NCBI GenBank assembly: GCA_963971225.1
Contig: OZ020268.1
Coordinates: forward strand, 47,170,404 to 47,234,403
Direction: 5' to 3'
DNA from: Melieria omissa
Taxonomy: Eukaryota > Arthropoda > Insecta > Diptera > Ulidiidae
Length of the DNA stretch: 64,000 nucleotides
Positions 1 through 64,000 of this stretch are shown in pieces; positions within the stretch are counted from its first letter, which is position 1, and every line of letters starts with the position of its first letter. The position numbers were made by a program, and so were the translations under genes. The notes under the pieces are model-generated. The model did not search any database and was not told the DNA's origin. It was given only the letters and a program-made list of their open reading frames with translations.

Positions 1-433
1 AACATGCGACTTCGTAGCCTTTTTTTGAAATGAAATTATACTTAGGTATACTTATGACTACGCTTTTATTATACACTATTATCTTAATGTTACCTTACAA
101 TTTAACACACGATTTTTTACTTGTTTCTGCAAAGAAGTGTTACAAGTTTATTTTTGGGCAAAATCTGAAAATAACGCGAATTTTAGCTCGTGTTTTTTAC
201 GAGCAGATTTTGACAAGCTGGATGCCAAAAGCACTAACAAAAAAAATATTAAATTTTGTTGCTGCCATAGTGCTATGACCTTATTAATACACCTTGATAT
301 CTATATTTTTGAACGAATCATTTAAATAAAAACCGACGGCGTTGTTCATCCGGTTATACCAAAACGGAGGTCTTAGGTCATTGCTGCCGAAAACATTCAT
401 TTCATTCTCTGTTAGAGTAAGTTAGAGTGAATT

Positions 434-640
434 AACATAAGAGGCACAAATACAAATTAGTACACTTACATATCAAACGTAAGCCTGAAAAATAAAATAA
501 GTAAATTGCAGCTCTGTCTGTTAGTTACTTAACTTTGGAACTTAAAAATTGCTCATCGAGTATCAATCACTGGCAACACTGTTTGTGAAACTTGCGCCAG
601 TGTTGTACACAATGAACTAGTGTTGTCGACTTCCGAAAAC
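434..640 (+). repeat. Diverged dispersed repeat, copy 1
   Basis: This segment resembles 1008-1240. Shared blocks are GCAGCTCTG, CTTAAAAATTGCT, GAGTATCA, GCACTGGCA/TCACTGGCA and CACTGTTTGTGAAACTTGCG, in the same order and orientation. The copies differ by substitutions and by a ~30 bp length difference between the first two blocks. No coding content or terminal repeats were seen, so the family is unassigned. Confidence 0.55.
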
Positions 641-1007
641 CTTCAGGAAGAAAACCCTTTCTTAAAGCAATTACAAACTTTTTGAGGACTTTTGAAGCGG
701 CAACACTGTATGGTATTCGCCAATGGTTACGGCAGTGTACTATTGATAAAATGTGTTTTCTAGAAAGAATATGTAGATATAAAACTCATCCAAAAAATAT
801 GACGAATCCACCGTTGTTGAGTCCAAACTAGTTTTTTTTTTCTCAATTGCATAATTTGGTAAGACTGAGTGATTACCAATAAAATGCAACTATTTTTATA
901 ATTTGAACTCACTCAACTTTGCATTGAGTTTCGTTAACTTAGCAAAATATGTTTCAGTACAAATGAGTAGGTATTTTTATTCAAATTTATCATTTAAAAA
1001 ATTGGTG

Positions 1008-1240
1008 TACATTAACACAAAAGGCACTTTTTATTTATTCTAAAACATCTAGATGAGCCTAGCAAATAAACGCAATAATTTGCAGCTCTGCCAGTTGGAA
1101 CTTTTCTACAAGTAAAATGCAACACGGGCTGATATAGCAACTTAAAAATTGCTAATTGAGTATCACGCACTGGCATCACTGTTTGTGAAACTTGCGCCGG
1201 TGCTGACCACAATGAACTTTGAACCAGTGCTGTTAGCAAG
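1008..1240 (+). repeat. Diverged dispersed repeat, copy 2
   Basis: Direct-orientation partner of 434-640, about 600 bp downstream. It carries the same block order and ends in the same CACAATGAACT string. The pair could be an old tandem duplication or two insertions of one short element. Confidence 0.55.
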
Positions 1241-1622
1241 CGAAAACTTTAAAGCAGCAGGCAACAATGCATGTCATGAATTATGTGCTCTAAAATATTT
1301 TGATAATTCGCTAGAAATAAAAGAATATGAGGATAACGGAGTAAGTTTTATTGGAAGAATCGTGCAAAATATAAAAACTTGGAAAACCTAATGCTGCATG
1401 TGCTCGCCCAAAACTTATGTCGAACTATATTAACATTTTAAACTTATTTTCTTGCCTGCTGATCTTGCCGATGATAACGCTCATTTATTATTTCAGCGGC
1501 GCAACAAAACAATATGCGTATATATATATCGAACACCCATATTAGCTTAAGGCCTCAGATGCCATAGCTTCTGTTTTATGTATATATTGTTCTATAATTT
1601 AGTTATAGTTTCAATTTTCTTG

Positions 1623-1643: not shown

Positions 1644-3512
1644 ATATCGAATTAAAATTTTACTTTGAAATTATTTCTAAAGTAATACATCACATGTGTT
1701 AAAATTTTTAAACTTACTTATCTTACACAATTTCCGTATTTCCCACGCATTTGAAACATGCACGGAAGTCAATTCACTTGCTCTAATTGCGAAAATCAGC
1801 GCTGACAAAACAATAGTATGTCAGTCTATCACACTCCCACTAAAGTATTTATAGCATTTATCATGCATAACATGTTTTTACAATCTTGCAGGCTTTTTTA
1901 TATCTGGGAATTTTAACGGATTGAAGAAGACCCACATTTTTTTCTGAAAATCCGAATCGGAATCAAATCTGCCAATCTGCCAAAAAAGAAAATTCAGAAA
2001 TAAATCCACCAAATTTGGCCGAATTCTACCAATTCAGGTGTAGTTTTCGCGTCGGCGTATTCTTTTCTTATCTGTCAATTCTTTTTAAATTGGTCGCTTT
2101 CATGCTGGTTTCTAGAGCGCATTGAGCTTGAGTAGTTTTGATCTTTTGTATATATAATCTTTTTCAAATGCCACCGAACAAACACCAAGTGCTGCTGAAA
2201 TTCGTAAGCAAATTACACATTTTTCCATTTTCTCAAAAACATAACTACAAATACGACTAAATATCCTAAGAAGCTTTGCGGAAAAAAGCTGTAATTCAGA
2301 GCTTGAAATTTTTGTGCCGTTTTCGTCGTATGAGACTGGACATCTATATGATGAGTTATCTGTGCTAGTAGTATGTTGAAAATTGATGGGAACGAACTCT
2401 AATGCATGAGCGTTGCTTCATACGCACTCAACTACGAACACCCAACTGTTGCCAAGAGCTTGAAGCTTATAAATACGGACAAACGCGGTTTCAACTAAAA
2501 TTCATATTGTCGACTTATAGCAAAGAATATAAGAATAAGAATATATAACCATTATCTAGTACTCAAATATTTGTGATTTTCATTTTGCAAATCTCTTTGT
2601 ACTTGCTTAATTCACATAAGTTTTTTAGTTGTTTTACATAAATTGCGCCACATACATTTAACATTAAAAAAAGTATTGCAACCTGAATATATTGTAATAA
2701 AAAAAAAAGAAACACAACACCCCTCTCCCCAACTACGATTTGAACCTGTGTTCGAAAATCAAATGCGCAAAAAGCAACACCACGAGGACCAAACCATTAC
2801 TACAACCATCCACGAACACCTGTCTGAACCGTGTGCTAAAACCTGATATAGCAATCTAAGTTTCAGACAATTTAAGACTTTTAGGTCACATACATAACAA
2901 CGTACGTATGCAACCTCACAGCTTTCACAAACAGAAAATTACTTCTGTTAACTGTACGACCATTTACATAGCAAATATGTAACAGTGATCGTCTAACATT
3001 TCCACAGACTCCTAACATAGAGAACTTTTAATAGAGTGCAATCCAGATCGTATGGAAGGAGAAATTAAAAAAACAATTAACAAAACACGTCTGTTCAGAC
3101 TTGGCTAGATTTGCTCAGATATGTTCACAGCCATCCTGGCTACCCTCTGACATAGGTGGGATATGTGGTCACATTTCCAGTTCGGAGCAATAGCCAGTAC
3201 AGTGGTGAGTTCGTATGCAAAAAAATTCAAAAATACACAAGAAACTGCAGCTTATTTTAGTAAAATCACACTATTACTTTTTTAATGTGTCCTTAAAAAT
3301 TCTAAATTTTTTCTAGTTCACTCCTTATGGTAGTTATCACTAAATAATTTGCCATCGAAAATTTATTTTTATAAAAATTGCACTTTCGTTCCACTTTTGT
3401 CACTTTCACTAAAATTTCACTTTAAGTTGTGGTTCGGCTTTTTAGGCCTACCACCAGCAGTCCTGCACTCACACCACGATGTCCTCGTTGAAGGAACCCG
3501 CTTAAAAAATGC

Positions 3513-5317: not shown

Positions 5318-6620
5318 AGGCTTGTCCACGAAATAACTTTTACATTTTCTATTATTAATAGCTACTAAATAAAATATTGAACTAATGTTTGTGTGAGTAT
5401 ATATTGTCTCTTATAACTCAAAGTTTGTGATAATGTACAAATATTTTAAAGTTCAATTGGATTTCTTACAAATCTACGTATTTTTGCTTTCAATCCCCTC
5501 ATCAAATGTTCACACCAGATTTTCCAATTTTTTTGGCCATACTGTTCCACTTTTTTATAAAATCAATCTTTCCCTTAGCACGTTTTTTATATTTCAGTAA
5601 GTTTCGTTTCATTATTGCCCAAAATCGTTCAACTGGCCGAAGCTGTGGGCAATTTGGGGGATTGTGATTTTTCTCAACAACACGGATCTTATTCCTTTGG
5701 TACCACTCTTTGACAATTTCTGCATAGTGGACTGTTGCTAAGTCTGGCCAAAATAAAGGTGGAACAGCGTGCTCTCTGTACAATGGCAAAAGTCGTTTGT
5801 TGAGACATTCCTTCAAGTAAATTTTACTGTTAAGAGTGCCAGTTGTAACAAAAGGACGAGTGTCTTTGCCACAGCTACATATGGCCTGCCAAACCATATA
5901 CTTTTTACCATATTTGTCCATCCGTTTATACTTGAACCTTTTCATAACGCCACCCTTCAGGTATGCTGTGTAATATCCTCGACCTGGAAGCTGTTTGAAA
6001 TCTTCTTTGACATACGTTTCGTCATCCATTAACACGCAGCCTTTAAAACGACACAGATCATTCGATAAAAGTTTTCGGGCTCGATTTCTGGCACGCTTTT
6101 CCACTTCGGAGTTACGATTTGGCACTTTTTGAACAACGAAAGATTTGAGCTCGTAGTGTCTTTTAATTTTCGCAATGTATGATTTCGAAACTTCGAATTT
6201 TCGTGCCAAATCTCGTAAAGATTGGTTTGGATTTTTTTCCAGAGAAACTTTCACCTTACGACCTATATCTTTATAGACGAAACCTTTTTTTCGTCCGGCT
6301 CCGACGATACGGGATGTGGACAGGTCCTTCTTGTATTTAATTACCACATTTCTAGCTGTTGCGCTGGAAACTTTGGCTAGTCTTCCCAACAATGCGTACA
6401 AAGCCGTTGGATTTTCGAAAAAGTGGGCAATTATTTTTTGTCGAATTTTCTCTTCTTTAGATGCCATTTTGATTGAATCACTTTGAATTTCAAAATACAA
6501 TTGACCACTAATAGCTGAAATTTGACAGATTCTGAAAAGCGAATTTTTTTTTTAGAAATTTCGGTGCTTACTATACTTTTTTTCGTTTTACATTGTAAAA
6601 GTTATTTCGTGGACAAGCCT
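5318..6620 (-). mobile_element. Tc1/mariner-type transposon, apparently complete (DD37E)
   Basis: A 1303 bp element. Its ends are identical inverted repeats of 27 bp beginning AGGCTTGTCCACGAAATAAC. TA target duplications flank it at 5316-5317 and 6621-6622. It encodes one uninterrupted transposase on the minus strand. Perfect terminal repeats plus an open frame suggest recent insertion. It landed inside the 3' part of an unrecognised reading frame (5260-7675). Confidence 0.93.
5502..6467 (-). CDS. Tc1/mariner transposase, DD37E type
   Basis: A cut-and-paste DNA transposase that would act in the nucleus on the terminal repeats at 5318 and 6620. I chose the ATG at 6467 (MASKEEKIRQ), giving 321 residues. 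The open frame extends 11 codons upstream, but only from a TTG. The N-terminal ~110 residues hold two helix-turn-helix segments (for example QSLRDLARKFEVSKSYIAKI). The catalytic residues are visible as D in LMDDETYV, D in WPDLATVHY and E in LRPVERFW. Thirty-seven residues separate the last two, so the spacing is DD37E rather than the DD34E of Tc1. There are no stops or frameshifts. The usual family length is 330-350 residues, so this looks full length and potentially functional. Confidence 0.9.
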   Translation of the reverse strand: MASKEEKIRQKIIAHFFENPTALYALLGRLAKVSSATARNVVIKYKKDLSTSRIVGAGRKKGFVYKDIGRKVKVSLEKNPNQSLRDLARKFEVSKSYIAKIKRHYELKSFVVQKVPNRNSEVEKRARNRARKLLSNDLCRFKGCVLMDDETYVKEDFKQLPGRGYYTAYLKGGVMKRFKYKRMDKYGKKYMVWQAICSCGKDTRPFVTTGTLNSKIYLKECLNKRLLPLYREHAVPPLFWPDLATVHYAEIVKEWYQRNKIRVVEKNHNPPNCPQLRPVERFWAIMKRNLLKYKKRAKGKIDFIKKWNSMAKKIGKSGVNI

Positions 6621-7675
6621 TATATGGCTTTGACACTGTATCTCTAAAACTTAGAGTGAGACGACGATTCGGAGCGTTAGTTAAAACTTCCTCAAGCTGT
6701 TCCTCCAATAGTACATCGGTTTCAACCAACTGCTGGACAACTTGCCTATTCATTATAATCATTAGTTCAGGAAAACGAAAACAAATTGTTCCAGCTTTGA
6801 AAAATCGAGAGAACATAATGAGATCACTAGAACTAATTGCGCCGGTGGAGGACGTAACGATGATTAACGTATATGGCACGTCACTTCTTAATACGAATTC
6901 ATCAAATTCTCCCTCATCATTTGGTAGGCGTAAAACAGACTCATCGATAAATCGCACACTGTCTCGCACTCGGCTAGCAACCAAAATTTGGAGACCAGAT
7001 GACTATGCGAGCAGCTCTACTTTGCAAGAATTCCAAGGTTACATACTGAAAGGGATCTAAATCTTTTTGATATTCATACATTATAAATAAACCTTCGGTA
7101 TACAATGTAATTGGTGAGGTTTCAGGAACAAAAAGTGGAGAGGCTGTGGTCATAATATCGTCCATTAGCTGACGACCCAGTCGCAACTCAAGCCCATATA
7201 GAGAAGCTGCTGGCTGAACAATTGAATCGTCATAAACTGTACTTCCATATGTCTGAAGACAAATTTTGAAACTAATCACTCTACTATCAATTCTAGTAGC
7301 AACATCATTAATTAGGATCTCAAATAAGTCCTTAAAATCTGCGAGTGATGAGAGTTGAGCCAATTTAACAAAAATACGGTCTGCACGAGCCGCTGTAATA
7401 ACTGATGATATTCCAAGAGCTTCTCGGTTAAACACTCCGACATTATTATTTACAAATTTAATTAAATCACCACATAGTATCCCCTCTTCCTGGATACGTT
7501 GTAAATTTGCTAACTGCACGGTAGCATCTGGAGCTTCAATTGATTCAGCACCTCTTAAACTTAACATTAAATAAAAAGGGAGCTCAAACGCTAATTCCTC
7601 TGTGTAACGTTGCATCATAATTGGTAACCATGTATGATTTTCTAATTCAACCAGCACCTGAGGTCTCTTCGGCAT

Positions 7676-8316
7676 CGAGCGGTTATGTAAACTTTATCTA
7701 ATCTAGAATTTCACTGACCCATAGCAGAGAAGTAGGGTAAGGGAAAGGAATGATAGTACGCGAAATTCCTGTTGCTGCAACATCTCCGTGCTTTCCTGCG
7801 TCTATTCCCCCAAGTATATCGCTTGTTACCGCTGCCGACTGCTGGTATCAGATGCTTTGGCTGTTAACTTCTGTCAATTGTCTCTCCGCTTCTAATTGAA
7901 GTTCTCTGCTTTAGTTCGTTAAGGTTTTAACTTTTGCCACTTATCGCTTATTCGTGTTTATTTAAAGTCTATTTTTAATTTTTTCCGATTATCGGTTTGT
8001 TTCAACGTTCCGTTGTTTTAATTCAGTTATAAATTTTTACGATTGTTGCTTAATTCCAGCGTTCTGTTGTTTTAATTCATTCAAAATTTAAAATATTTTT
8101 TTTTCGCTTATTACCAAATTTCTCGTTCCGATGTTTTAATTCATTTATAGATTTTTCCGATTATTGTTAAGTTCAACGTTCTGTTAATTTAATTCATTCA
8201 AATTTTTAACATTTTTCCACTAATTGATTAGTTACAGCCCGTCCCTTTCGTTTTCACTACTAAGGGGCCAAATCCAAAATTTTCACAAGTTTTACAGGAA
8301 TTTTACGCGATTTGAA
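7676..8316 (-). other. Leader between primer site and the unrecognised frame
   Basis: Non-coding DNA between the tRNA-Lys type primer site at 8317-8336 and the ATG at 7675. Most of the half nearer the LTR is a tandem array (7981-8212). Its position matches the long untranslated leader of an errantivirus genomic RNA. Confidence 0.5.
7981..8212 (-). repeat. Tandem array of four ~55-65 bp units in an LTR-element leader
   Basis: Four diverged units on the plus strand share the order CGATT - TTCAACGTTC - GTTGTTTTAATTCA - AATTTTT. Examples start near 7985, 8040, 8108 and 8158. Leader repeats are common in gypsy-group elements, where they can act as insulator or translation-control sequences. No function is visible from the sequence alone. 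Confidence 0.7.
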
Positions 8317-10203: not shown

Positions 10204-10582
10204 GAACTCATTGACCGTTTGCTCACTCGGCGGATTTCTGCTGGAGCCTCAACGGCGGCTCCTGGGCTTTTACTTCTTTAACCCACCTGAAGATTAATCC
10301 AATTAAACGAATTTGGTTATAACACTTGTTCACTTTTATTTAGCACAATTAGGTTTGCAACTGCTCCCGGCCACGTCCCAATTAGGATTGACTCACCCTC
10401 TGCAACCTACTTAGAACTAAACTTATTCTATGCCCTAATTTTCACTGCGTCGGCATTTTACGCGGGAATCGCGGTGCAACTGCATTCCCACGCTCGCCGT
10501 TATGCAAGCGGATGCGCGTGCATAGGCCAGACGCTTAATCAGCACCTTTGCATATCGCTGCAGCTAGTCGCTCGCCGTAACT
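10204..10582 (-). repeat. 3' LTR of the gypsy-type element
   Basis: Nearly identical to 18999-19385 from GGAGCCTCAACGG onward. The outer (low-coordinate) ~50 bp is diverged or rearranged, so that boundary is approximate. A polypurine tract (AAGGAGGGAGG on the minus strand) lies directly upstream at 10583-10593, as required for a 3' LTR. Confidence 0.85.
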
Positions 10583-10715
10583 CCTCCCTCCTTAAATATC
10601 TGCGTCCCGCAGATCCTGTCGGATGGTCGCGTTGGGCTCGACGCTTGGTGGAGGACGAGCGGCAGGGAGTTGGAGCGAGGGTATGCCAGCTTTGTTCGTT
10701 ACTTTTTGCCATATA

Positions 10716-11198
10716 AGGCTTGATTACACGTAACGAGTAGAGTGAGAAGACAGCAACTCGAACGAGTACTCGTTTCGTCTAAACGGTAAGGCGAGTTCTT
10801 GATTGAGTCAGTGATCGATGAAAGTGGCGAGAGAGCCACTAGAATCACATTTTGTTTGCTAGGCCGAGCGACCACTACTTTACCGTTATATTTTTCTCTT
10901 TTCGCAGCGATTCGTGCAATCGCTCGTCAAATGCGGCATCGCTCGTGACATGCGGCATCGCTCGTGACATGCGGCATCGCTCGTGACATATGCGGTATGC
11001 GTCACACACCACTTTTCGCTCGGTTGAGTTTAATTGCGCGAGTTGCTTAGTTCATTTTGTGCGTTGTAAAACCGAACTGACTCGCCGCGTGTCGAAATAC
11101 GTTTGAACAACTCGTCGCTTTTGCTCGCTATCCCAATTCTTTCGGCCTAGTACCATTTTGATGTCTCGTCACTCGACTCGTTACGTGTAATCAAGCCT
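10716..11198. mobile_element. 483 bp MITE with ATA target duplication
   Basis: Inverted ends start AGGCTTGATTACACGTAACG and are identical for at least 22 bp. They are flanked by ATA at 10713-10715 and 11199-11201. The interior is rich in CTCG/CGAG words and holds three perfect 19 bp tandem units (10931-10987). No coding capacity. A 3 bp AT-rich duplication would suit a PIF/Harbinger-related source, but the family is not established. It interrupts the end of env. Confidence 0.8.
10931..10987. repeat. 19 bp tandem repeat, three perfect copies
   Basis: The unit ATGCGGCATCGCTCGTGAC is repeated three times without change inside the MITE at 10716-11198. Confidence 0.95.
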
Positions 11199-12538
11199 AT
11201 AAGGATAACGGCGAGTAGCATTAGAAGTAGCATCCCCATGTCCATGGACGTTGACACAGTAACACGGTCGGCTAGTCGTTCCAGTCGAACAATGTTCTTC
11301 ATGCTGACGTTGTGGACGTGATCCAGGTCGACTCTTAACCCTTCGCTTGTGAAGTTCGCAAGTACGGCAGGTAACACTTGGGAAGTCCTTGCTGAATGCA
11401 GCGAAAAGGTCTGATTGTTTAACCATATCGTCTCATTGTGAAGTTGAATAATGAATGTTCCTTCCAAGTTCCTGGAAGAGTTCGTCGTCTTAAGCTCGCC
11501 TTTGAAGTTCGTTAGAAATAGGGTGTCCTCGCTGATTAGCTCTACCACTTCTTCAGTATTGGTTTTGTAGCGACATTTCGCGTTACCACCTTTGAGCGCT
11601 CTGGGCACGCACGAGTCTTCAGGGAACTTTTCCAGGGATGTCGTAGGGCAAACTGACGAGTTTCCTATATTTAGGCAGTCGCCTATCAATCCATATGTCT
11701 CGTCTTGGTCCAGTAATAGTTTAGAAAATTTCAAATCAACCTGCGTGCCATTGTGTATGGATGCTCGGCAGTTCACTAAGAGGTAGGCGTTACTCTTGAC
11801 CTTCGGCATCGCAATGACGTACAATACCAAGGTTCCGTTCGTGTAGACCGATGGTCGGCCAAACTCAACGGCTTCTATCGCGTTCTGGTACGGTAGCGTT
11901 TCGAGTTCGTTAACAATCGTGTTGACCTCTTCAGCGTTCAAGAGGTTCGTGTTCACAATACCCCGCTTCGCCATCTGGCACGCTCGGACGACCTCGTTGA
12001 CACCTTCTTTCAGTACAAGCACTTTGTTGAGCAAGTCGTGGCCTTTCGTGTCAGTGTCTTCCTTAGTGACTATGTTGTTAAGGCAGTTCACCAACTCGTT
12101 GACCCTGCCGATGACCTCGTGCGTTGCTGTGAAGATTTTGTTGTTAATTTTATATTGGTCATTATTATTTTCGATGATTGTCGCCTGGCTTTTAAGTATT
12201 TTATCCCGGTCGACGGCGTCAGGCGAGCCCGCCAGCCACTTCCAGGCCGTTCCAATCCAGTTGATTGACCGAGGTGTCCTTTGCCTTCGGCTGCGGAGTT
12301 CGTTCAGCCTTTCTTTGACTTGGCTTAGGTGGAATTCAAGGGTTAGGCACAGAGCTTCCTCTTTCACCTCGTGCCGTATGAGCCTTTCTGTTTCCTCGAT
12401 GACATCGGCGTAGCGTTGTAGATCGATTGCGTGAACGAGTTTAAAGTGTCCGTTAGTTATCCAGGCCGTTCCTTCTCGAACGGTGACTACGGGTGCATTG
12501 TAGCTGAAGACGTGCAGGGCGTCCGCAGCAGCTATCAA
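11147..12538 (-). CDS. Errantivirus envelope glycoprotein (Env), open frame
   Basis: About 463 residues of the errantiviral Env fusion glycoprotein, a membrane protein made from a spliced RNA. A basic cleavage-type site (RSRRQRTPRS) is at about residue 85-94. It is followed by the conserved INWIGTAWKWLAGSPD segment and a long heptad-like helical region (residues 110-190). Several N-x-S/T sites follow, and a C-terminal membrane span (MLLLMLLAVILIG) is at about 435-448. There is no ATG at the upstream edge (the first codon is TTG), but TTTTTCAG ends at 12546, a good 3' splice site. This fits env expression by splicing from a leader or gag start. The last ~15 residues are encoded by the MITE at 10716-11198, so the native cytoplasmic tail has been replaced. 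The frame is otherwise unbroken. Confidence 0.85.
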   Translation of the reverse strand: MIAAADALHVFSYNAPVVTVREGTAWITNGHFKLVHAIDLQRYADVIEETERLIRHEVKEEALCLTLEFHLSQVKERLNELRSRRQRTPRSINWIGTAWKWLAGSPDAVDRDKILKSQATIIENNNDQYKINNKIFTATHEVIGRVNELVNCLNNIVTKEDTDTKGHDLLNKVLVLKEGVNEVVRACQMAKRGIVNTNLLNAEEVNTIVNELETLPYQNAIEAVEFGRPSVYTNGTLVLYVIAMPKVKSNAYLLVNCRASIHNGTQVDLKFSKLLLDQDETYGLIGDCLNIGNSSVCPTTSLEKFPEDSCVPRALKGGNAKCRYKTNTEEVVELISEDTLFLTNFKGELKTTNSSRNLEGTFIIQLHNETIWLNNQTFSLHSARTSQVLPAVLANFTSEGLRVDLDHVHNVSMKNIVRLERLADRVTVSTSMDMGMLLLMLLAVILIGLITRNESSDETSKWY

Positions 12539-12907
12539 GAATAATCTGAAAAATTTTCTCTTATATAACTTGTACTAGGACTGAAAGGCAGTGAAATGAT
12601 TCGGCGAAATTGACAATTTTGTATTTAAAATTTTAAAGTTACCGGGTGACGTGGCCGTTGAGCTTAATTAAAGATAATAAGATAGTCAGGTGAAATTATT
12701 TTTAAATACTTACAAAATTATTTTATAATATTACAAAATTATGGTATTACCATTATGGTATTACAATTGATATGATAAAATTAGATATGATAAAATAGTC
12801 AAGAGAAATTATTTGATATGATTACAATTATTTAATTATTTAAGTACCATAGTCAAGTGAAATTACATTGTAGGACTACGAAGCACACTCTCCCTTTTTT
12901 TTTTTTT
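12539..12907 (-). other. Spacer between integrase and env
   Basis: AT-rich non-coding sequence with loosely repeated words such as AAATTATTT, GATATGAT and AGTCA(A/G)G(T/A)GAAATTA, suggesting small internal duplications. It carries the presumed env splice acceptor at its high-identity end near 12546. Confidence 0.5.
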
Positions 12908-14742: not shown

Positions 14743-14833
14743 TTCCGCATTCCCGATTTGTTGCCTAGTTTCACTAGCTGTTTCTGTGCAGGAATTGCCT
14801 TCACTTGCCGTGTCTGTGGACGAGTGTTGGAAA

Positions 14834-15544: not shown

Positions 15545-15818
15545 TTCCTGTTTAATGGTTGCTTAACGGTTAGATTGAAAAAGAAAAAAAGGCTCACTTA
15601 CCGAGTGTTGAGATAGCAGTTATTTTCTATTCTATACTGGTACTTATCAGTTTCTCTCTTATAACCGGTGCCACGCAACAGCCACTTACAATTTGAGCAT
15701 TGGTTGTTTCTTGTTTCTTATATTGAATTTAGCTTCCAATAAGGTCTCGATCCTGCCCTGCTCGATGATAAGAAAAGAGAAAAAACATTAGTGTAATGTA
15801 TTAAAAGCTATGAACGGG

Positions 15819-16006
15819 TCATGGAAGGATCGTGTTATTCGTTTTAGTCGTCCGCGTTTATACTTGCGGTCGACCTACTAAGGCACAATTTGCTTCACAG
15901 CCCGTGTATTGAGAATTGGGAGTCAGTCACGGAAGGATCGTGTTATTCGTTTTAGTCGTCCGCGTTTATACTTGCGGTCGACCTACTAAGGCACAATTTA
16001 CTTCAC
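15819..16006 (-). repeat. Direct 80 bp repeats carrying a conserved hairpin
   Basis: Two nearly identical copies (15819-15898 and 15927-16006), period 108 bp. Each folds with an outer stem ATCGTG/CACAAT and an inner stem GTCGtCCGC/GCGGtCGAC around GTTTATACTT. On the minus-strand RNA the one apparent outer mismatch becomes a G-U wobble. Compare 8480-8539. Confidence 0.75.
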
Positions 16007-47452: not shown

Positions 47453-47640
47453 AAAAAACCAAAAAATGTTCCAACAATTCAAATACAAATTCAAACTTTC
47501 ACGTCTGTCAAGTTTATTTTCGTATTTTAAGGTTGGTAACAAGGCGAATCACAGCGAATCAGTTTACTCGCTAACCATAATACGTTTTTGGTTGTGACTC
47601 GCCAAATCGGGCGAATAGAACAATTCATTCGACTCGCAAA

Positions 47641-50472: not shown

Positions 50473-51955
50473 CATCAGATAGTGCGAGACAAGAGACTGA
50501 AGTCATATCCGTTTTTGTCCTTGTCGGAAACTATTATGACGTCTATGTACACATAAGAGATTTTTCCTATGTGTTCCTTCAGTATGTCGTCCAGTGCTCG
50601 TTGAAATATAGCAGGCGCATTCTTTAATCCGAAAGGAAGTCGGGTAAATTCATATTTCCCATTATTGATCGAAAAAGCCGTTTTCTCTGTAATGTTTTTA
50701 ACCTTTATAATGAAACGCAACAATGTTCTCTCAGAGTGAACTTTTATTTTCCTTCCATGCGTTGCTAATGGCGGTTGACGCTCCAGTGCCCCTTGACACG
50801 CCATGTCTTACATCCAATGGCACCACTGCGTGACAATCTATTACATCATCTACTACACGCTATTACGTCGTCTATTACATTCTCAACATCAGATTATTTC
50901 AAGGGAATCTGATGGAAGCCGCTCTTCAAGTTGAGAACGGAGAAATATGTGGTATTTCCTAATTGCGAGATTACCTCGTTGATTTCTGGGATAGGGTATC
51001 TTTTTCTGGCTGCTTCTGAATGCAGTAGGCACAGATAAACGTTTTCGAGCAGCGGCAGTTCATTGGGTAGCTCACTTGGCACACTTGCCGAAACTTTATT
51101 AAAACAACAAATTCAGTACAATTTTTCTTACAAGTTACTTACATTTTAGTTCCCTTGTGCCCATGCGCACTTACCAACGACCAAATTGCAAAAGACTGCA
51201 AAAATTTCCGTTTGACAAGTGGCGAATTGGCGACGGATGAGAAACAAGAGAAATGGAAAAAGTGCGTACGGCATTTCCAGAGCAATGTTACCACAACAGT
51301 ATCTGTTCGCTATTGTTATTGTGTTTAGTTTCCTGTAGTCGATTACAAGTCTGTATTTTTTTTGTCCTGATGCTTCTAATTTCTTTGGTACGACCCACAC
51401 GGGTGAGTTGTAGGGAGAGCGGGAATTCCATCCTTTAGTAAATTTTCAATTTCTTTGTCACGAAATCTCTCATTGCTAGGGGTAAGGATAGTATTTGGCT
51501 ATCTGAAGAAGTTCAAAAAGGTGAGATGATTTATATGTTGCTTTTGTGTTTCTGTCATATGGTCGGTCCTTATGTCGATTTTGTTGACTGATGGAGAAGG
51601 TTGCTGTCTAATTTTGATACTAATGCTAAATGCAAGGGTATCATCATAGATTTTTATTATGGCACGAAGCTCCTTAAGACTATCGTTTCTTATTATGGCA
51701 TCAAACGATTTTAGGGTAGGAAGCAGAAAGAATTTCAATTTAGTGTAGTTTTTCCCGAATAAATTTATAATTGTATGGCGAGTGATATGTATTTGTCCAT
51801 CTATAGAATTTGCAAAAGACGGTTGGTCATTGGGTATTTGTTTAGAAACGTGACAGGGTTGGATATAATTTCTGCTCGATCCGGTATCGATGAGCATTTT
51901 AAAAATTTTTCGGTTCTTCGTTTTACATTCCACATATGGCATTCCACGGTCTCAA
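50473..51955 (-). pseudogene. Errantivirus (297/17.6-type) protease and reverse transcriptase
   Basis: PR lies at 51942-51499, with FKMLIDTGSSRNYI (D-T-G-S) and ending SLKELRAIIKIYDD. RT follows, broken into [17 protein letters not shown] (51400-51300), YPIPEINEVISQL with FSVLNLKSGFHQIPL (51000-50894), and INNGKYEFTRLPFGLKNAPA with YVYIDVIIV (50690-50530). In the last block the catalytic YIDD has become YIDV. A 297 bp insert splits the second and third motifs (51002-51298), and stops and junk lie at 50805-50893. RNase H, integrase and env are absent past 50473. Confidence 0.85.
51002..51298 (-). mobile_element. 297 bp insertion in RT, type undetermined
   Basis: Flanked by GTATCT on both sides (50996-51001 and 51299-51304; AGATAC on the minus strand), exactly where RT would read ANRY-PIPE. 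On the minus strand it starts TGTTGTGGTAACA and contains TTTTAATAAAG near 51085, so it may be a solo LTR or a truncated retroelement. Its other end (CAGCCAGAAAA) does not match an LTR end. Confidence 0.6.
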
Positions 51956-51959
51956 AACG

Positions 51960-54272
51960 AAATTGATGAATCTCTGAAATACCGCCGGGGCATTATTACG
52001 AAATCTTCAGCAATAGGAATCGGATGAAACCCACTCTTCAGATCAAGTGTAGTGAAATAACTTTTGCCCTCCATTCGTTCAATGCAGTCATCGATAGTCG
52101 AAAGCGGGTAATTATCCCGTTGGGTAATTTTATTTAGAGCACGATAGTCTCACACTTTCGTGTTTCCCTACATTTCTTTTTAACTAGGACTATCGAAGAT
52201 GCGTACGGGAAATCACTAGGCCGTATTTTGCCTTCACTCAATAAGCCCTGAATAATCTTCTGGACTCCCTTTTTATCGCTATATGAAAGTCTTCTAAGCG
52301 GAAAATTAATTGGAATGTCAGACGTCAACGCGCTTTTCATTTCATAATTATGCTCGATGGCTGGAATGGTTGAAAGTAATTTTCTTTCAGAACCCGAATT
52401 AAGATTTCGATTTGATCGGAACCCAGCTTCTCACAAATATCAATCTGATAATCACCACAATATGTATTCAAATCTATCGCAAATATATCTGGAATAGAAT
52501 CTGTGCAGTCGTGATCGGAATCTGAATGAGTAGCGGAGTTTAAGCAATCTGAAAGCTTTCCAGAAGATCGCTTCGACAAGCGGCTTTGAAATGAAACATG
52601 TGTTTTATTTTTCGCTGGAATTTTATGTGTGTGTTATTTGAAAATTGACAATTGGCCATAGTATTCGCCAATACCTTTGTAGCCCGTGAAGAACAATTCG
52701 CCTGTGACCAAATGATTTGGCACGACTGACCGTTGTACAAAACTAGCCGGACTGCCCGTATCGAAAAGGGAATAAAGTTCAGTAAATAAATCTTGATTAC
52801 CCAAATCAGTTGTAAAAGCTGCATTTACAATGTTTAATTCGGAGAAAGTAGTATTTATTCCACCAGCGTCATCCTGGCGTGTGGTTGATTCGTCGAGTTC
52901 ATCCAGCAGCGCCATTCTAGCTGCAGTGGGTAGTGGCGGTCTCGCAAAACATGCTGCACGGATCCACAGCGGAAGCAAGAGCCCTTTTCGCCCTTCGATT
53001 TTTGACAGTTTGATGAAATGGGACCAAATCCGGAGCAGTTAAAACACTGTGTAGTTTTGACTCCCAGGTGCGGCCTGGATTCGGAATTGACAGAAGCTCT
53101 CGCAGCCGGAACTGGCATTCTCGGAACAGCTGACGGAACCTTAGAAGCGGAAGACGGAACTCTGAACACGGAAGACCACATGGCACGTAGTTGAACATAG
53201 CGACCAGCAAGGGACTTCAACTAATGAATAGTTGTTGCTACATACATCACGGCAATACTTGGTGTCGGGTGGTTAAGGCCGTTGATTATAAGCTGAATTA
53301 CATGTGCCTCGTCTACAGTCGATCGCGAAACAATTTCCTGCATCTGCAGTATATAGCCGAGGACGGTAATTTTTATGGCATCGAATTTGGTCTTCTGGAG
53401 GATTTCGATAACCTCTCCCGCAGAATACGTATGACCAAAATTCTTCAACAAATTTGTTCTGAACTCGGAGTATGTCATTGATTGGTCAATTCGTAGGAAC
53501 AGCTCGGCTGGTGTGTCCTTTTTCATTAAACGTCGGATACACTTCAACCTGAGTTGTGTACTCATCGATAGTTTCATCACTATTTTTTGGAAAAAAAATT
53601 TATGTCTTTCCATGACAATGTTTATGTATAAAATAGTCATCTAACTTTTTTATTAAATCGTTGTATTTGATGGAGTCCAAATTTTCATTAAACGAATTAA
53701 AAATTATTGTTAAATTAGATAGATATTTTATTGGTTCATGAATAGTTGTTGCTACTTACATCACGGCAATACTTGGTGTCGGGTCGTTGAGGCCGTTGAT
53801 TATAAGCTGAATTACAAGTGCCTCGTCTACAGTCGATCGCGAAACAATTTCCTGCATCTGCAGTATATAGCCGAGGACGGTAATTTTTATGGCATCGAAT
53901 TTGGTCTTCTGGAGGATTTCGATAACCTCTCCCGCAGAATACGTATGACCAAAATTCTTCAACAAATTTGTTCTGAACTCTGAGTATGTCATTGATTGGT
54001 CAATTCGTAGGAACAGCTCGGCTGGTGTGTCCTTTTTCATTAAACGTCGGATACACTTCAACCTGAGTTGTGTACTCATCGATAGTTTCATCACTATTTT
54101 TTGGAAAAAAAATGTATGTCTGACAATGTTTATGTATAAAATAGTCATCTAACTTTTTTAATTAATCGTTGTATTTGATGGAGTCCAAATTTTCAGTAAA
54201 CGAATTACAAATTATTGTTAAATTAGATAGATATTTTATTGGTTCAATAGCTACCTGAGCCAATTCAGCCAT
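51960..54272 (-). pseudogene. Gypsy-superfamily gag-protease-RT fragment with a duplicated gag segment
   Basis: Gag starts at ATG 54272 (MAELAQVAIEPIKYLSN). The capsid-like block LRLKCIRRLMKKDTPAELFL, then FRTNLLKNFGHTYSAGEVIE, occurs twice because of a 514 bp tandem duplication. A CCHC knuckle region (CFNCSGFGPISSNC, CFRCGSVQHVLRD) follows. Then come a protease with YSLFDTGSPASFV (D-T-G-S) near 52760, a linker, and the RT start (FPLRRLSYSDKKGVQKIIQG, IRPSDFPYASSIVLVKKK) near 52300-52150. RT ends at about 51960. Several frameshifts are present. The gag type resembles that at 42740-44497. Confidence 0.8.
53224..54245 (-). repeat. 514 bp tandem duplication in gag
   Basis: Units about 53224-53737 and 53738-54245 are nearly identical over their full length, differing at a handful of positions and a few single-base or short indels. 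The duplication repeats most of the gag N-terminal half. Confidence 0.9.
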
Positions 54273-57625: not shown

Positions 57626-58138
57626 TTTGGATATGGATCTGATGATATTAAAAGACGATTTATTACGTCCGTATTGTTCTCTTCCCTTGATGTCTTCCGT
57701 TTGTATAACTCTCGATATCTCCTAACGTCCTTGTTACGCGCTTCTTGTGCCTCTTCGGACAGTACAGTATGAAATATTTGCAGCGTACTCTTTGAAAGCG
57801 TTCACATTTATCGGAAGACCAGAGTTTAGACTTTCGAGTAGAGTGCGAAACAGGTTTATTAGCTCTAAATCGATGCCAGTTACGGCGGTTGATACTTCGG
57901 AATTGTGGAAAAAACGCCTCGCTGTGTTTCCGTCATTACTATTTCCACAATTATGTTTCGGTACATCTATTAATAATCCTGTTTCATCTTAAATTTTTTT
58001 TTTGGATGTGCAACTTTCTTTGCAAAACATTTTCTTTGTATTCACCACTTGCTTGCCATTTTCGCATCTCTAAGCGATATGAAATGTGATGTGCAGCACG
58101 CACTCCATACGCATGCAAACGTGAAAGTCCCTGTTTAA
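57626..58138. other. Unassigned region between gag remnant and BEL LTR
   Basis: No gene or terminal repeat recognised. Short plus-strand frames have no motifs. Confidence 0.4.
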
Positions 58139-58319
58139 TGTTTAAACAACAGTAACAATTTCTTTATTCTTCAATTTCAAATGATTATAAAAATAAAATG
58201 TCGACCGCTTCGGGCCGATGTTCTCGTGCTAGTGACGGCAGAAAAATCCTTTTAGGGATGTGCAAATGTGCATGATAAATTGTGCGCAATTTCAGGCACA
58301 TTTGCATACATGCCGTACA
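58139..58319 (-). repeat. 3' LTR of the BEL/Pao element
   Basis: 181 bp, minus strand TGTACGGCATGTATGC...CTGTTGTTTAAACA, AATAAAG near 58165, preceded by GCGCGGAGGA as the polypurine tract. The LTR contains TTTGCAC/GTGCAAA words repeated near 58262 and 58300. Confidence 0.7.
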
Positions 58320-58429
58320 TCCTCCGCGCCGATGATATTTAATGGAATATCATCAATGATGAGTCGAGTTGTCACTACAATGACGCTATAACGAGATTAA
58401 AGTACAATGATATTAAAGCATGGTGCGGG

Positions 58430-61400
58430 CTAAGGGTGCCAGTTGTCTTGAATTGGGAGTGGACACAGCTTGGCTACGGGCCGTTTCAGTATCCCATTTT
58501 TAGTCTTCAGATCCACAACTCGAACTAATGTGTCAGTTCCCGGGTATGTACGGATTATTCGTCCCAGTGGCCAATGATTACTGGGAGCTCGTTCGTCCTT
58601 AATTAACACTATATCGTTAATTTGAAGATTGTCCCGAACTTGCAACCACTTTGGTCGGGCTTGTAACCGAGCCAGATATTCCTTTCGCCACTGCCGCCAA
58701 AATTGCTGAACTAGAAACTGGCAATTTCTCCATCTGTTTACAAGACTTAGTTTGTCAATTTGCGGTTCCGGGGGTGCAAGTAATGCGTCCCCAATCAGAA
58801 AATGACCCGGTGTTAAAACTAACAAATCGTCGGGATCATTTGTCATTGGACACAATGGTCTTGAATTGAGACTTGATTCGATTTGTGCCAGCACGGTGCT
58901 GAGCTCCTCAAAGGTTAAACGCTGTTCACCAATAGTTCGTTTGAGATGATGTTTCATGGATCTCACCCCCGCTTCCCATAATCCTCCAAAGTGCGGCGCC
59001 GAGGGGGGTATGAAATGCCATTGGATTTGTCGCTCTACGAGAAATGGTGCAATTTGAGAATTAATATATGTGATATAAGAATTCTTATCGGCTTGAAGTT
59101 TTTGGTTCGCGCCTACAAAATTGGTTCCGCAATCGCTATACAAATCTCGACATAGTCCTCTTCTGCCGATAAAACGATGCAGAGCTCCGATGAACGCCGC
59201 CGCGGACAAATCGCCGACCGCCTCGATATGAACCGCCTTTGTTACTAGGCAAACGAAAATAGCTATATATCCTTTCACTGCTGTTCGGCCGCGACCCTTT
59301 GATGGTGAGACATTTATTGGACCCGCATAGTCGACTCCAGTCGATGAGAACGGCCTTGCTGGGCGGATACGTGGTGCGGGTAAATTTCCCATAAGCTGCG
59401 TTGCAGGTCTCGGTTTGTATCGATGACACTTAACACATGGATGAATAGCAGAGCGAACGGCGTTACGCCCATTTAATATCCAAAACCGTTTGCGAATGTA
59501 ATTTAACGTGACAGAAGCACCCCCGTGAAGAGTATTCAAATGAGCGTGTGCGATGATCAACTTAGAAACGTGATGTTTTTGTGGTAGGATAGAAGGATGC
59601 TTTTCACGATATGGCAGAAGTGAGTTGCTGAGCCGTCCTCCTAGTCGGATAACCCTTTCCTCCGGATCAAAAAATGGATTTAATGTCGTTAATATGCTCT
59701 TTTCTGGGAGAGGGTAACTGGATGATAAGGCGTTCCACTCGTGTAAAAAGGCTTGTTGTTGAACAACGCGAACAATGCTGATGATGCTGTGGTCCAGTTC
59801 TTCGACCCGTAATGAATTGAACCGTCGCTCCGAGGCTACTTGACGACAATTGTAACTGAAACGATGGCAATATGCAATTATGCGTATAAGATGAGTGAAC
59901 GAAGAGAACTTCTCTATGACTGCTACGACGAACTCCATCTCGGTATGACATAAGTTCACCCTAACCATTTTCATTTCTCCTTCACCAGTTTTCATTGTGA
60001 AATCGCTGTCACCTGAACGATCCGGCCATTTATCGATTGAACGTTGTAACCATACTGGACCATGCCACCATAATTTGTGCAGTGCTAAACTTTTGGGACC
60101 CAAACCTCTGCTGGAACAATCGGCTGGATTATCTGTTGAAGCTACATGCTGCCATTGTTTAGCCGTCGAGGTTTCCAGTATTTTATGAATACGATTTGCA
60201 ATGAAGATTTTCCAACGATTTGTCTCTCCTCGAATCCACCCCAGAACGACCATGGAATCCGTCCAGAAGAAAATGTGCGAGTTGTCAATTGGTGGGCGCA
60301 TGTTTTGTTCGAGAAAGTGCGCCACTTTCGCAGCCAATACTGCTCCGCATAGCTCGGCTCTTGGAATGGTTAACTTAGGTTTGATGGGCGTAACCTTACT
60401 TTTCCCCATAAGCAACTCACAAGACCACCGCTTATCTTGACCACGAACCCGTAAATAGGCTGCTGCAGAATAGGCATTGATTGACGCATCACAAAACACA
60501 TGCAATTCTCGTACAACATTGGAATCACTCGTTTTGAGCCAACGTGGAATGTGTATTTGTGCAATAGTGGGTAGCTCGTTGATGAATTGTTTCCACGATT
60601 TTTGTATTGGATCGGGCACTGGTGTGTCCCAGCCTATATTCAACAACCATAACTCCTGCATAAGGATCTTAGCAGCAATTATCATCGGATTCAGCCATCC
60701 GAGTGGATCGAATAGACGTGCAATTGTTGACAGAATTACTCGCTTCGTGGGGATTTCATGGGAAATTTCAAAATTAAGCTTGAACTGAAACCTATCGTTG
60801 GTCGGATTCCAATACATTCCTAATGTCTTCACAGTTTCATTGGAGTTCAGTTGTAGCAAACCTCCAGTTTCTTTGTGATCATCCGGAATGCTTTCAAGCA
60901 GCGCTGGATGGTTAGCTGCCCACTTGCGAAGCTCAAATGTGCCTTTCCGAAGCATTGCTATAACTTGGCTCTGTAGTTCCTTTGCTCTTTCAATCGAATC
61001 TCCCCCGGATAAAATATCATCCACATACATTTGATATTTTATAACGTCAACCGCTAGCGGAAAGTTATCTCCTTCATCATCAGCCAGCTGAAGCATTGTG
61101 CGAATCGCCGTGAAAGGAGCTGAACCCGTGCCGAACATAACCGTAGAGCAAAAATATTCCTTTATATCGGCTGATGAATCATTACGCCATAAGATTCTTT
61201 GATATTGTGCATCCTCGCTATTCATGTTAATGCATCGATACATTTTTTCGATATCCGCTGTAAAGACAAATTTAAGGCTACGCCAGTTGATAATTATTGC
61301 AGCTAAATGAGTTTGAAGTGCTGGACCGATTGCCAAAATGTCATTTAAAGAGTTGCCATTGCTGGTCTTGCTTGACGCATCGAACACAACTCTAACCTTC

Positions 61401-62947
61401 GTAGTTGAAGAGGAATTCTTGATGACAGGATGGTGAGGAAGGTAACAGTATTTCCGAAAAGATCCTTCACCATTTAGTTGTGCGGCGCGGACCAGCTGCA
61501 TCTGTCCCAAGCGTAAATATTCGTCGATCGTTGTCTGATAGCTTCTTCGTAGTTGAAGGTCTCGCACTAAGCGACGCTCAAGTTGTAGAAACCGCTTCAA
61601 TGCTAATTCCCGCGATTCGCCTAGGACTCTGGAAGAATCGATATCTGTTAACAAGGGTAATCGAACGATATATTTTCCGCTTTCTAAACGCCGGTGAGTG
61701 TCTCGATAGAACTGTTCGCACCACTGATCCTGGCTTGATAAAGCTCGCTCAGACATAGATTCCTCGAGTTCCCAAAACTTATTTAGCAGGTGATCCATGT
61801 CGACTTGTGTGTGGCACGACGAAACAGTGACAGTTGGAGTTGTTGTTGGTGGGAGCCCCGAGTTGTAAACTTTACCCGATATGATAAAGCCGAAAACGGT
61901 TTTCTGAGCAATTGGTCCCCCACAAGGTGTTCGACGAGTATCGCCCAGCATGATTTCGTCATAAACATCATTTCCCAATAGAATATCAATTTGTTGAGGT
62001 TCATAATACTTTGGATCCGCCAGATCCAGACCATGTAGATGTGGCCAGTCCACAAATGGTAGCTGTTTTGCAGGCATGAGATGGCTTACCTTGGGTAACA
62101 CATATGCTAAAACAGTAAAACTGATGTTCGTATCCAAACGCGAACCAATTTTCAAAATTACTGATGATCGCCCTTCAGCGACTTTGGTTTCCGATAAACC
62201 TTTGATCGTTACCCAAGCTCGATTTCTTGGTAATCGCAATAGCTGAGCGGTACGCTCCGTTATAAATGAGGCTTCGGAGCCTTGGTCTAAAAATGCCCTC
62301 AAATTCAACGACTGCCCTTCTGAGTCGTTGACCGTAATCATCGCGGTTGGTAACAGCACTTCATAATTAAATGCATGTCGTAACTTCCCGTTGGAAGCTG
62401 CTGCGCTCCGGCTGGCAGCATGACCGTTGGTTACCGATAGATTTGTAGATATAGTTGAAGGTCCGTCAGCCCCTCGTTCAATGTGTATAAGTGTATGATG
62501 TTTGCCCCCACATGTCGAGCACGTACGACTACTATTGCACTTTGCAGATAGGTGGTTGCAGCTCAAACAGTTGAAACATAGCTTAAATTTCTGCACGACT
62601 GTCCTACGTTCCGTAACGTTCAACCCGAGAAATGTCGCACATTCCCGAACTGAATGATCTGCCTTTGTACAGACCGGACAGACTGCAGCTTTCTTGATCA
62701 CCTGCAGTGATGTTATGTCTCTTTTGATAGATGTCGCCGATAAATTACCCTTTGGGCGAGCATCTAACCTTGCATTCTGCTTCGTGGAACCGTTTGTATT
62801 CAAATTGGATGACGTAATCATCATTTGATATTGTTCGTCGAGTACTGAGCATAACTCATCGAAAGTTGGAATTGTTTTCCGTTTACTGATAGTTCGACCC
62901 CATTCGCGTTGGATCGTACTTGGTAACTTCTTCAACATATAGTACAC
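58430..62947 (-). CDS. BEL/Pao Gag-Pol polyprotein (gag end, PR, RT, RNase H, IN)
   Basis: 1505 uninterrupted codons. The boundary at 62947 is only the first codon after an in-frame TAA; gag runs on upstream. Order: gag C-terminus with knuckle-like clusters (CPVCTKADHSVREC, CFNCLSCNHLSAKC, residues ~88-140). Protease with AFLDQGSEASFI (~225). RT with VRVVFDASSKTSNGNSLND (~525) and the catalytic YVDDILSG (~645). RNase H with LHVFCDASINAYSAAAYL (~825) and FWTDS (~900). Integrase with a zinc-binding CVKCHRYKP (~1170), D in FSSTGVDYAGPI and YSDCGTNFVGA, and E in FGGLWEAGVRSMK (~1320). A C-terminal DUF5641-like domain ends VAKLCPLP. This would replicate and integrate the element. Its openness suggests recent activity. 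Confidence 0.92.
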   Translation of the reverse strand: MYYMLKKLPSTIQREWGRTISKRKTIPTFDELCSVLDEQYQMMITSSNLNTNGSTKQNARLDARPKGNLSATSIKRDITSLQVIKKAAVCPVCTKADHSVRECATFLGLNVTERRTVVQKFKLCFNCLSCNHLSAKCNSSRTCSTCGGKHHTLIHIERGADGPSTISTNLSVTNGHAASRSAAASNGKLRHAFNYEVLLPTAMITVNDSEGQSLNLRAFLDQGSEASFITERTAQLLRLPRNRAWVTIKGLSETKVAEGRSSVILKIGSRLDTNISFTVLAYVLPKVSHLMPAKQLPFVDWPHLHGLDLADPKYYEPQQIDILLGNDVYDEIMLGDTRRTPCGGPIAQKTVFGFIISGKVYNSGLPPTTTPTVTVSSCHTQVDMDHLLNKFWELEESMSERALSSQDQWCEQFYRDTHRRLESGKYIVRLPLLTDIDSSRVLGESRELALKRFLQLERRLVRDLQLRRSYQTTIDEYLRLGQMQLVRAAQLNGEGSFRKYCYLPHHPVIKNSSSTTKVRVVFDASSKTSNGNSLNDILAIGPALQTHLAAIIINWRSLKFVFTADIEKMYRCINMNSEDAQYQRILWRNDSSADIKEYFCSTVMFGTGSAPFTAIRTMLQLADDEGDNFPLAVDVIKYQMYVDDILSGGDSIERAKELQSQVIAMLRKGTFELRKWAANHPALLESIPDDHKETGGLLQLNSNETVKTLGMYWNPTNDRFQFKLNFEISHEIPTKRVILSTIARLFDPLGWLNPMIIAAKILMQELWLLNIGWDTPVPDPIQKSWKQFINELPTIAQIHIPRWLKTSDSNVVRELHVFCDASINAYSAAAYLRVRGQDKRWSCELLMGKSKVTPIKPKLTIPRAELCGAVLAAKVAHFLEQNMRPPIDNSHIFFWTDSMVVLGWIRGETNRWKIFIANRIHKILETSTAKQWQHVASTDNPADCSSRGLGPKSLALHKLWWHGPVWLQRSIDKWPDRSGDSDFTMKTGEGEMKMVRVNLCHTEMEFVVAVIEKFSSFTHLIRIIAYCHRFSYNCRQVASERRFNSLRVEELDHSIISIVRVVQQQAFLHEWNALSSSYPLPEKSILTTLNPFFDPEERVIRLGGRLSNSLLPYREKHPSILPQKHHVSKLIIAHAHLNTLHGGASVTLNYIRKRFWILNGRNAVRSAIHPCVKCHRYKPRPATQLMGNLPAPRIRPARPFSSTGVDYAGPINVSPSKGRGRTAVKGYIAIFVCLVTKAVHIEAVGDLSAAAFIGALHRFIGRRGLCRDLYSDCGTNFVGANQKLQADKNSYITYINSQIAPFLVERQIQWHFIPPSAPHFGGLWEAGVRSMKHHLKRTIGEQRLTFEELSTVLAQIESSLNSRPLCPMTNDPDDLLVLTPGHFLIGDALLAPPEPQIDKLSLVNRWRNCQFLVQQFWRQWRKEYLARLQARPKWLQVRDNLQINDIVLIKDERAPSNHWPLGRIIRTYPGTDTLVRVVDLKTKNGILKRPVAKLCPLPIQDNWHP

Positions 62948-63679
62948 TAATATTTGATTTTGTGATTACACGTTAACCCCTAATTTCTGTATCGAGTTTA
63001 CACATGCACGACATGTCTGTGTAAATTGTCTTAACGCTGCAGCATCTTCCTTGCGAACCGCTGGTTGGTCTTCGAAAACGTTCATAAAGTGCGAAAACAA
63101 GATTCTGTTATTGTCGTATAAGTCGCTCAGCATTTTCCAAGCGACTTCATAGTTTTCGCCTAGAATGCTGATATGCTGAATGTCTTGTGCAGCAGCACCG
63201 GATAACGCGCCTTTGAGGTAATGTAAACGCTGACAATTATTTAGACGTGCGCTGTTATGAACACGTGCAAGAAATAATTCCTTAAAGGCATGTCGGTAAT
63301 TTGACGTCTGGCAGCGGCACTTCGAGAGTCACAGCAGGCGCAGTTGTCATCGGTGCACTTTGAATCTCGCCCGATGGAGAGGGGGAAAATGCAGTCTCGA
63401 AAGCTGTCCGGATTGTGGACATGGCTTCCAAATAGCCTCCTCAAATTCATCACTGAGTTCCACCTTCACGTACCGTTCTTGTACTTCCTTATCGTCAGCA
63501 ATGTGCATTATTTGCCGGTGGTTGTCGCGAAACTCCCCCCGTAGCGAAGTAAGCACTTCCAACCTTGTTTGGAAATATGCTTTGGTTTTGCGTGCCACGG
63601 CATCCTTTTTAAAGTTGCGTAACGTTTTATGCACGGCGTCTAACAATGCTATTTGTTCAGCTACGTACTCCATGGACAC
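62948..63679 (-). pseudogene. BEL/Pao Gag, N-terminal and central part
   Basis: Start region MEYVAEQIALLDAVHKTLRN near 63673. A helical block follows to CPQSGQL (~63400), a frame change near 63350, and the conserved core LHYLKGALSGAAAQDIQHIS, then NYEVAWKMLSDLYDN (~63240-63130). VRKEDAAALRQFTQTCRACV follows. A TAA (62953) right before the long pol frame is the main break. In BEL/Pao elements gag and pol are normally one frame. Confidence 0.8.
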
Positions 63680-63700
63680 CCAGCTTCATCCACCACACAT

Positions 63701-63765
63701 CAATATAAATTGCGCTTACCTCGTGTCCGCACCCTTTTGTGCGCGCTCCGAATTCGCAGTTTTGC
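63701..63765. other. Junction between BEL gag and the minisatellite
   Basis: Short unassigned sequence upstream of the gag start. Confidence 0.3.
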
Positions 63766-64000
63766 GAGCGCCAAATCTCCACGTACAGCAAGCACCAGAC
63801 CACCACGTGTGACGAGCGCCAGATCACCAAATACAGCGAGCACCAGATCACCACGTGCAGCGAGCGCCAGACCACCACGTGTGACGAGCCCCAGATCACC
63901 AAATGCAGCGAGCGCCAACTCCACGTACAGCAAGCACCAGACCACCACGTGCAGTGAGCGCCAGACCACCAAATGCGACGAGCGCCAGATCACCAAATGC
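63766..64000. repeat. 24 bp minisatellite running off the window end
   Basis: Ten diverged units with consensus GCGAGCGCCAGAYCACCACG, then TGCA. Units alternate CACGT- and AAAT-containing versions, giving a higher-order period: CTCCACGTACAGCAAGCACC recurs at about 63776 and 63916. The array continues to base 64000. Frames on both strands are repeats of eight codons and should not be read as proteins. Confidence 0.9.

Follow-up and report, generated by a model that had tools for sequence, protein, structure and literature searches.

We analysed a window of 64 kb (64,000 nucleotides) on chromosome 2 of Melieria omissa, a non-Drosophila fly of the family Ulidiidae in the Tephritoidea. The window is C2:47,170,404-47,234,403 (OZ020268.1), in a genome of 490,334,835 bases in 164 contigs, and forms the inner part of a minus-biased transposon block of about 320 kb, which extends from about 46.985 to 47.305 Mb. 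We suggest, from the anatomy of the block and by analogy with other flies, that it is a flamenco-like unistrand source locus of PIWI-interacting RNAs (piRNAs) in a tephritoid fly, which would be read on the plus strand from the side of a chitinase-like gene; we put the probability of this reading at roughly 0.78. The block lies about 47.2 Mb into C2, which has 127,743,786 bases, and has host genes on both sides. The assembly has been described as 490.54 Mb in 173 scaffolds, with chromosome 2 (OZ020268.1) at 127.74 Mb (PMC12648027). All block counts below are based on 264 kb of the roughly 320 kb, and the flanks were covered by 100 kb on either side, five spaced 10-kb stretches and three smaller ones, with stretches labelled by L-numbers.

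Within the window, stop-to-stop open reading frames (ORFs) of at least 200 amino acids number 16 on the minus strand and one on the plus strand, and those of at least 150 amino acids number 25 and six. Twenty dinucleotide shuffles gave, at the 150-residue threshold, a mean of 1.1 plus and 0.75 minus ORFs, so that a slight plus excess would have been expected. Because there are more long minus ORFs, those passed through Pfam were 54 minus and 15 plus; every transposon domain above the cut-off is on the minus strand (env, reverse transcriptase, RNase H, integrase zinc finger, BEL peptidase, hAT, DDE_3 and zinc knuckle). All 12 merged tblastn matches to 210 homologous hAT, env and BEL proteins are minus as well, as are all eight CCHC zinc knuckles. 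Chaining at 4 kb yields six long terminal repeat (LTR) element loci, all minus, and four transposase loci, three of them minus. The number of LTR loci varies from four to eight with the chaining distance and six alone give a P of only about 0.03, so the weight of the one-sidedness comes from the ORFs and the flanks. These results bear out an earlier sequence-only reading of the window, which had placed all retroelements on the minus strand. Its figure of about two dozen independent pieces was an overcount given the six loci, and the long interspersed nuclear elements (LINEs) that it had included were not found in the window.

The strand bias carries on past the window on both sides and then ends, with sharp block ends at host genes, giving one large locus of hundreds of kb. 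The orientation of elements in neighbouring sequence had been named as a check on the sequence-only reading; the flanks proved one-sided too, and the flamenco-like unistrand architecture that it proposed is supported and indeed strengthened by them. The queries for these counts were ORFs named mainly by Pfam and in a few cases by eye, together with homologous proteins, and pieces were chained at 4 kb. All 28 LTR loci in the 264 kb are minus (19 Gypsy, seven BEL and two Copia), and the result is the same at other chaining distances (36 of 36 at 1 kb, 22 of 22 at 8 kb). Transposase loci are minus in 15 of 16 cases (17 of 18 at 1 kb, 13 of 14 at 8 kb); by class, minus to plus, they are hAT 7 to 0, Tc1-like 4 to 0, piggyBac 3 to 0 and Harbinger transposase 1 to 1. 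LINE loci are minus in six of eight cases, which is not significant alone (P 0.29), and unclassified loci comprise five minus and one plus. Inspection by eye adds to these tblastn counts one more Harbinger transposase on the minus strand and one more mariner-like scrap on the plus strand; the tblastn library overlooked the mariner-like scrap at 39.2 kb and is incomplete in this respect, for both strands alike. Gypsy coding sequence is found on the minus strand in 23 of 27 bins (10 kb each, one of 4 kb) and on the plus strand in none, and its share reaches 5% or more in 19 bins and 2.5% or more in 23, so the block is rich in Gypsy and LTR elements by coverage. One stretch, L023:1004-4629, carries a 1.8-kb tandem duplication, 99.6% alike, with two long minus ORFs of unknown kind.

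An annotation-free comparison gives the same picture. We ran all-against-all blastn of the stretches and kept copies of 100 bp or longer whose spacing exceeded 15 kb, with satellites excluded; none of the 58 dispersed repeat pairs, which represent 18 families and range in identity from 65 to 99%, is in opposite orientation. Merging copies within 12 kb leaves 51 copies, with 33 of 33 comparisons in the same direction, and counting the two LTRs of one element apart gives 46 of 46. With the cut-off lowered to 60 bp there is one opposite pair among 72. The unfiltered set has four among 528 (204, 138, 63 and 42 bp), three of which are at most 8 kb apart while the 63-bp pair is dispersed, and with satellites kept and L034 left out all 190 pairs agree in direction.

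This comparison bears on the possibility that orientation was set at insertion, by a targeting preference, or spread by segmental duplication of a few elements, instead of being selected. Some near-identical copies do occur, including two stretches of about 1.5 kb that are 99.2-99.4% alike and lie 92 kb apart, and there are tandem duplications and 65-bp satellite arrays. Nevertheless, unrelated integration machineries (integrase, hAT, Tc1-like, piggyBac and target-primed LINEs) face the same way, and 18 repeat families over the range of identities given above are involved, so we regard this explanation as very improbable. The satellite-like arrays are found at L012:1-5337 and L016:3041-3954, with copies shifted by about 65 bp, and run in the same direction in both.

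The one-sidedness extends to elements that appear young. Eleven LTR-like pairs, that is, direct repeats of at least 98% identity lying 1.6 to 9.8 kb apart, all enclose minus coding pieces; one 1.8-kb tandem pair and five pairs below 98% were dropped from this list, and LTR signals were checked for the window pair only. If the pairs are LTRs, the block would still be taking up elements, with young insertions as one-sided as old ones. Elsewhere in the genome env sequences are evenly oriented: the best 90 of 2115 candidate matches, none of them inside the block, comprise 45 plus and 45 minus, and among these best 90 of 2115, neighbours 10-400 kb apart face the same direction in seven cases and opposite directions in eight. 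These are the best-scoring copies and hence mainly recent insertions. Separately, C4, which at 83 of 490 Mb is the smallest chromosome, carries 51 of the best 90 of 2115 env matches.

The elements recognised in the window, with positions counted from its first nucleotide, are as follows.

5502-6551, minus: Tc1/mariner-type transposase piece (DDE_3, from Pfam), with a 98.6% copy 136 kb leftward in the same direction.
10243-19385, minus: Gypsy-type element with env at 11147-12574, integrase pieces at 12908-14862 and two 340-bp LTRs.
19893-23162, minus: Gypsy-type pieces, probably of more than one element, with env, RNase H, reverse transcriptase, protease and zinc knuckle.
25542-26965, minus: BEL/Pao element piece in two frames, from tblastn.
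27922-29145, minus: hAT transposase piece (dimerisation domain), from Pfam.
35778-36344, plus: Harbinger transposase piece, an exception, identified by eye and 37.5% identical to the L029 transposase.
38299-44035, minus: Gypsy-type pieces, probably of more than one element, from Pfam and zinc knuckles; start of pol at 38299-38991, protease and zinc knuckle at 39840-40244, env at 40919-42329, gag with zinc knuckles at 42734-44035.
39190-39400, plus: mariner-like scrap with an internal deletion, an exception, identified by eye.
44916-47644, minus: Harbinger element with 26-nt terminal arms 85% complementary; degraded minus transposase pieces at 46548-47305 (by eye) and a plus SANT-like gene at 45409-46068.
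47858-49867, minus: hAT transposase with an open frame of 669 amino acids.
50475-53640, minus: Gypsy-type reverse transcriptase and gag pieces, from Pfam.
58132-64000, minus: BEL/Pao element; its open frame at 58430-62965 spans 1511 amino acids.

The 340-bp LTRs at 10243-10582 and 19046-19385 are 99.1% alike, and a purine tract and a TGG site place the element on the minus strand; no clear target-site duplication was seen for this pair. The 188-bp LTR-like end repeats of the BEL/Pao element at 58132-64000 are identical (the right copy lies outside the window, at L019:128-315), which together with the open frame indicates a recent insertion. Between that frame and the right end repeat, at 63764-63995, a minisatellite repeats a 48-bp unit about five times. 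Gypsy-type gag contains a tandem duplication of 515 bp at 53224-54246, its copies 96.9% alike, and two minus ORFs, at 33869-35122 (417 amino acids) and 6974-7693 (239 amino acids), are without any Pfam match. Named env relatives are all from flies (Lucilia, Anastrepha, Musca and Condylostylus). The best two named hAT relatives are from hoverflies, with further ones from a tephritid, beetles, ants, crustaceans and a coelacanth. Viral contigs yielded no relatives of one window reverse transcriptase, and scans of the window for transfer RNAs and with Rfam found nothing.

On the plus strand the sequence-only reading had placed only DNA-transposon coding scraps and a Harbinger SANT gene. Its two coding scraps, the Harbinger transposase at 35778-36344 and the mariner-like one, stand, but the DNA transposons of the window are not mainly plus: two hAT transposases and a Tc1-like one are minus. 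That reading overlooked that the minus direction is common to BEL elements and to most DNA transposons. The Harbinger SANT gene is on the plus strand as it had said, but adjoins the degraded minus transposase pieces. SANT-like genes are found at four loci in the block, all plus, and in L029 one lies together with a minus-strand transposase within a single element (terminal arms 3374-3389 and 6294-6309). The element at 44916-47644 has the same build, and a SANT gene on the plus strand is therefore no sure sign that its element is reversed.

The anatomy and extent of the block can be followed to its ends. On the left, a plus-strand exon resembling a GH18 chitinase, with the DxxDxDxE active-site motif, lies beside the presumed block start (L035:3805-4500 and L036) and stops at a splice-donor-like site about 5 kb left of the block. 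Sequence at 46.9754-46.9801 Mb, left of the block, in which this exon lies, has no similarity to the transposon queries, and the first hAT piece, on the minus strand, follows near 46.9855 Mb. On the right, Gypsy coding sequence stops before 47.3044 Mb, and past that limit there are only two weak LINE matches: a minus match right at the edge, and a plus match near 47.321 Mb. An MKK7-like exon, from a gene that we take to be hemipterous, follows on the plus strand near 47.3127 Mb, and a DHX37-type helicase, also plus, near 47.3466 Mb.

Several points weigh against a piRNA source locus. The sequence read has gaps, about 55 kb in all within the block and a further 5.3 kb ahead of it, where the putative transcript would start. 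Not every element conforms: the plus exceptions are a Harbinger transposase, the mariner-like scrap, an ORF of unknown kind in L020 and two LINE pieces, one in L014 (a weak zf-RVT match, below the cut-off) and one a 52-bit match near 47.168 Mb. The genome-wide control covers env matches only. There is no shortage of the polyadenylation hexamer AATAAA on the plus strand beyond composition: it occurs 245 times on plus and 612 times on minus, and its scramble AAATAA, at 243 and 586, is equally skewed, so composition explains the difference. Finally, a pattern search for the end motif of the chitinase, in the stretches then read, returned the known exon only and no later exons, which leaves room for a host intron or read-through from the chitinase gene.

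The block might accordingly be a giant intron of a host gene on the plus strand, either the chitinase-like one or hemipterous, or a long untranslated part of it; sense transposons would then have been purged for breaking the transcript of that gene, with no need of a piRNA role. Both flanking genes are plus, a splice-donor-like site closes the chitinase exon, and antisense bias has been described for seven of eight transposon families in human genes (PMC3517506). The human bias, however, is about 2:1 for LTR elements, and at that rate even 26 of 26 would have a P of 2.6e-5 (28 of 28 are observed). In addition, the later chitinase exons may sit in the 5.3-kb gap, and the window's plus ORFs that went through Pfam showed no host-like exon. 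We consider the host-gene explanation unlikely.

If the block is instead a piRNA source locus, a single long plus-strand RNA would begin near 46.98 Mb at its left end, next to the chitinase-like gene or past it, and would end before the hemipterous-like gene, making it antisense to nearly every element inside. The plus strand is 33% T and 27% A, so this putative precursor would be U-rich. It would be cut into piRNAs that guide a PIWI protein against the block's transposons and, to judge from other flies, would probably do so in the somatic cells of the ovary. Antisense insertions would persist because they add guides and leave the transcript unended, while sense insertions would be quickly lost. 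Transcription, piRNA production, tissue and selection are what we infer here from the layout of the locus. A long non-coding plus RNA, or another plus transcript unrelated to piRNAs, could also exclude sense insertions, and sequence cannot separate such a transcript from a piRNA precursor. We think this improbable, as published somatic piRNA clusters of flies are marked by env-bearing Gypsy remains that lie antisense across hundreds of kb (PMC10643416, PMC13172572).

There is precedent for reading such a locus from its layout. Strand-biased LTR content was used to find unistrand loci in Drosophila, giving six candidates outside the D. melanogaster subgroup, and both of those with public small-RNA data gave one-strand piRNAs (PMC10643416); FlaHMM relies on a similar signal (PMC11400887). 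The block in M. omissa resembles flamlike1 to flamlike5 of other Drosophila, which were likewise recognised by LTR content skewed to one strand across about 100 kb or more (PMC10643416), and differs in that BEL and Copia are minus in nine of nine cases. In the hoverfly E. tenax and the Queensland fruit fly B. tryoni, ovarian somatic clusters give piRNAs that are antisense to gypsy and come mostly from a single strand (PMC13172572). Those clusters likewise come from non-Drosophila flies and have one direction relative to gypsy, but were shown by small RNA, whereas the M. omissa block is described by anatomy only. We found no paper on piRNAs in Ulidiidae in the literature searched, nor one that joins hemipterous with both piRNA clusters and flamenco; for unistrand piRNA clusters in Tephritidae the same literature gave only a Drosophila paper.

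Like flamenco in D. melanogaster and the simulans clade, the block is a single locus of hundreds of kb that adjoins unique genes, with env-bearing Gypsy elements antisense to a transcript, which here is putative. The elements of flamenco are reported to be 79% antisense in D. melanogaster, with 71% for D. mauritiana, 78% for D. sechellia and 50% for D. simulans (PMC10495008), figures that count all annotated elements, while those for M. omissa count coding pieces only. The flanking genes differ, being a GH18 chitinase and MKK7/hemipterous here. The sequence-only reading had looked to synteny with flamenco itself, near DIP1; such a link is unsupported in this non-Drosophila fly with these neighbours, although DIP1 itself was not searched for.

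Drosophila flam-like clusters have been reported to show strand bias for Gypsy and none for other LTR elements (PMC10643416). Such a restriction to Gypsy is not seen in M. omissa, where BEL is minus in seven of seven and Copia in two of two cases, and the direction common to BEL, Copia, hAT, Tc1-like and piggyBac elements besides Gypsy is unusual against those clusters. Two causes of the bias have been named by van Lopik and colleagues: selection for complementary piRNAs, and sense polyadenylation signals that end the transcript (PMC10643416). The locus offers a way to separate them, as useful guides predict bias mainly in elements active in follicle cells and an unbroken precursor predicts it for all. 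Bias in nearly all classes leans toward the transcript-ending cause, and human genes lean likewise. The AATAAA count given above showed no plus-strand shortage of that signal beyond composition. In human introns the antisense bias also involves several classes and is tied to transcript termination by sense copies, although it is about 2:1 for LTR elements against 28 to 0 in the M. omissa block (PMC3517506). The useful-guide cause may also apply, if BEL and DNA elements are among the targets of the locus.

Tentatively, and with the odds somewhat against it, we propose that the block is a class-blind trap, in which any sense insertion, of whatever class, cuts short one essential 320-kb precursor, and in which guides against retroviruses would be a profit of the bias and not its cause. 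If so, the bias limited to Gypsy in Drosophila would be a special case, and the piRNAs of this locus would be directed at BEL, Copia, LINE and DNA elements too. The block would in any event extend the genomic signature of one-strand anti-retrovirus clusters to a further fly family.
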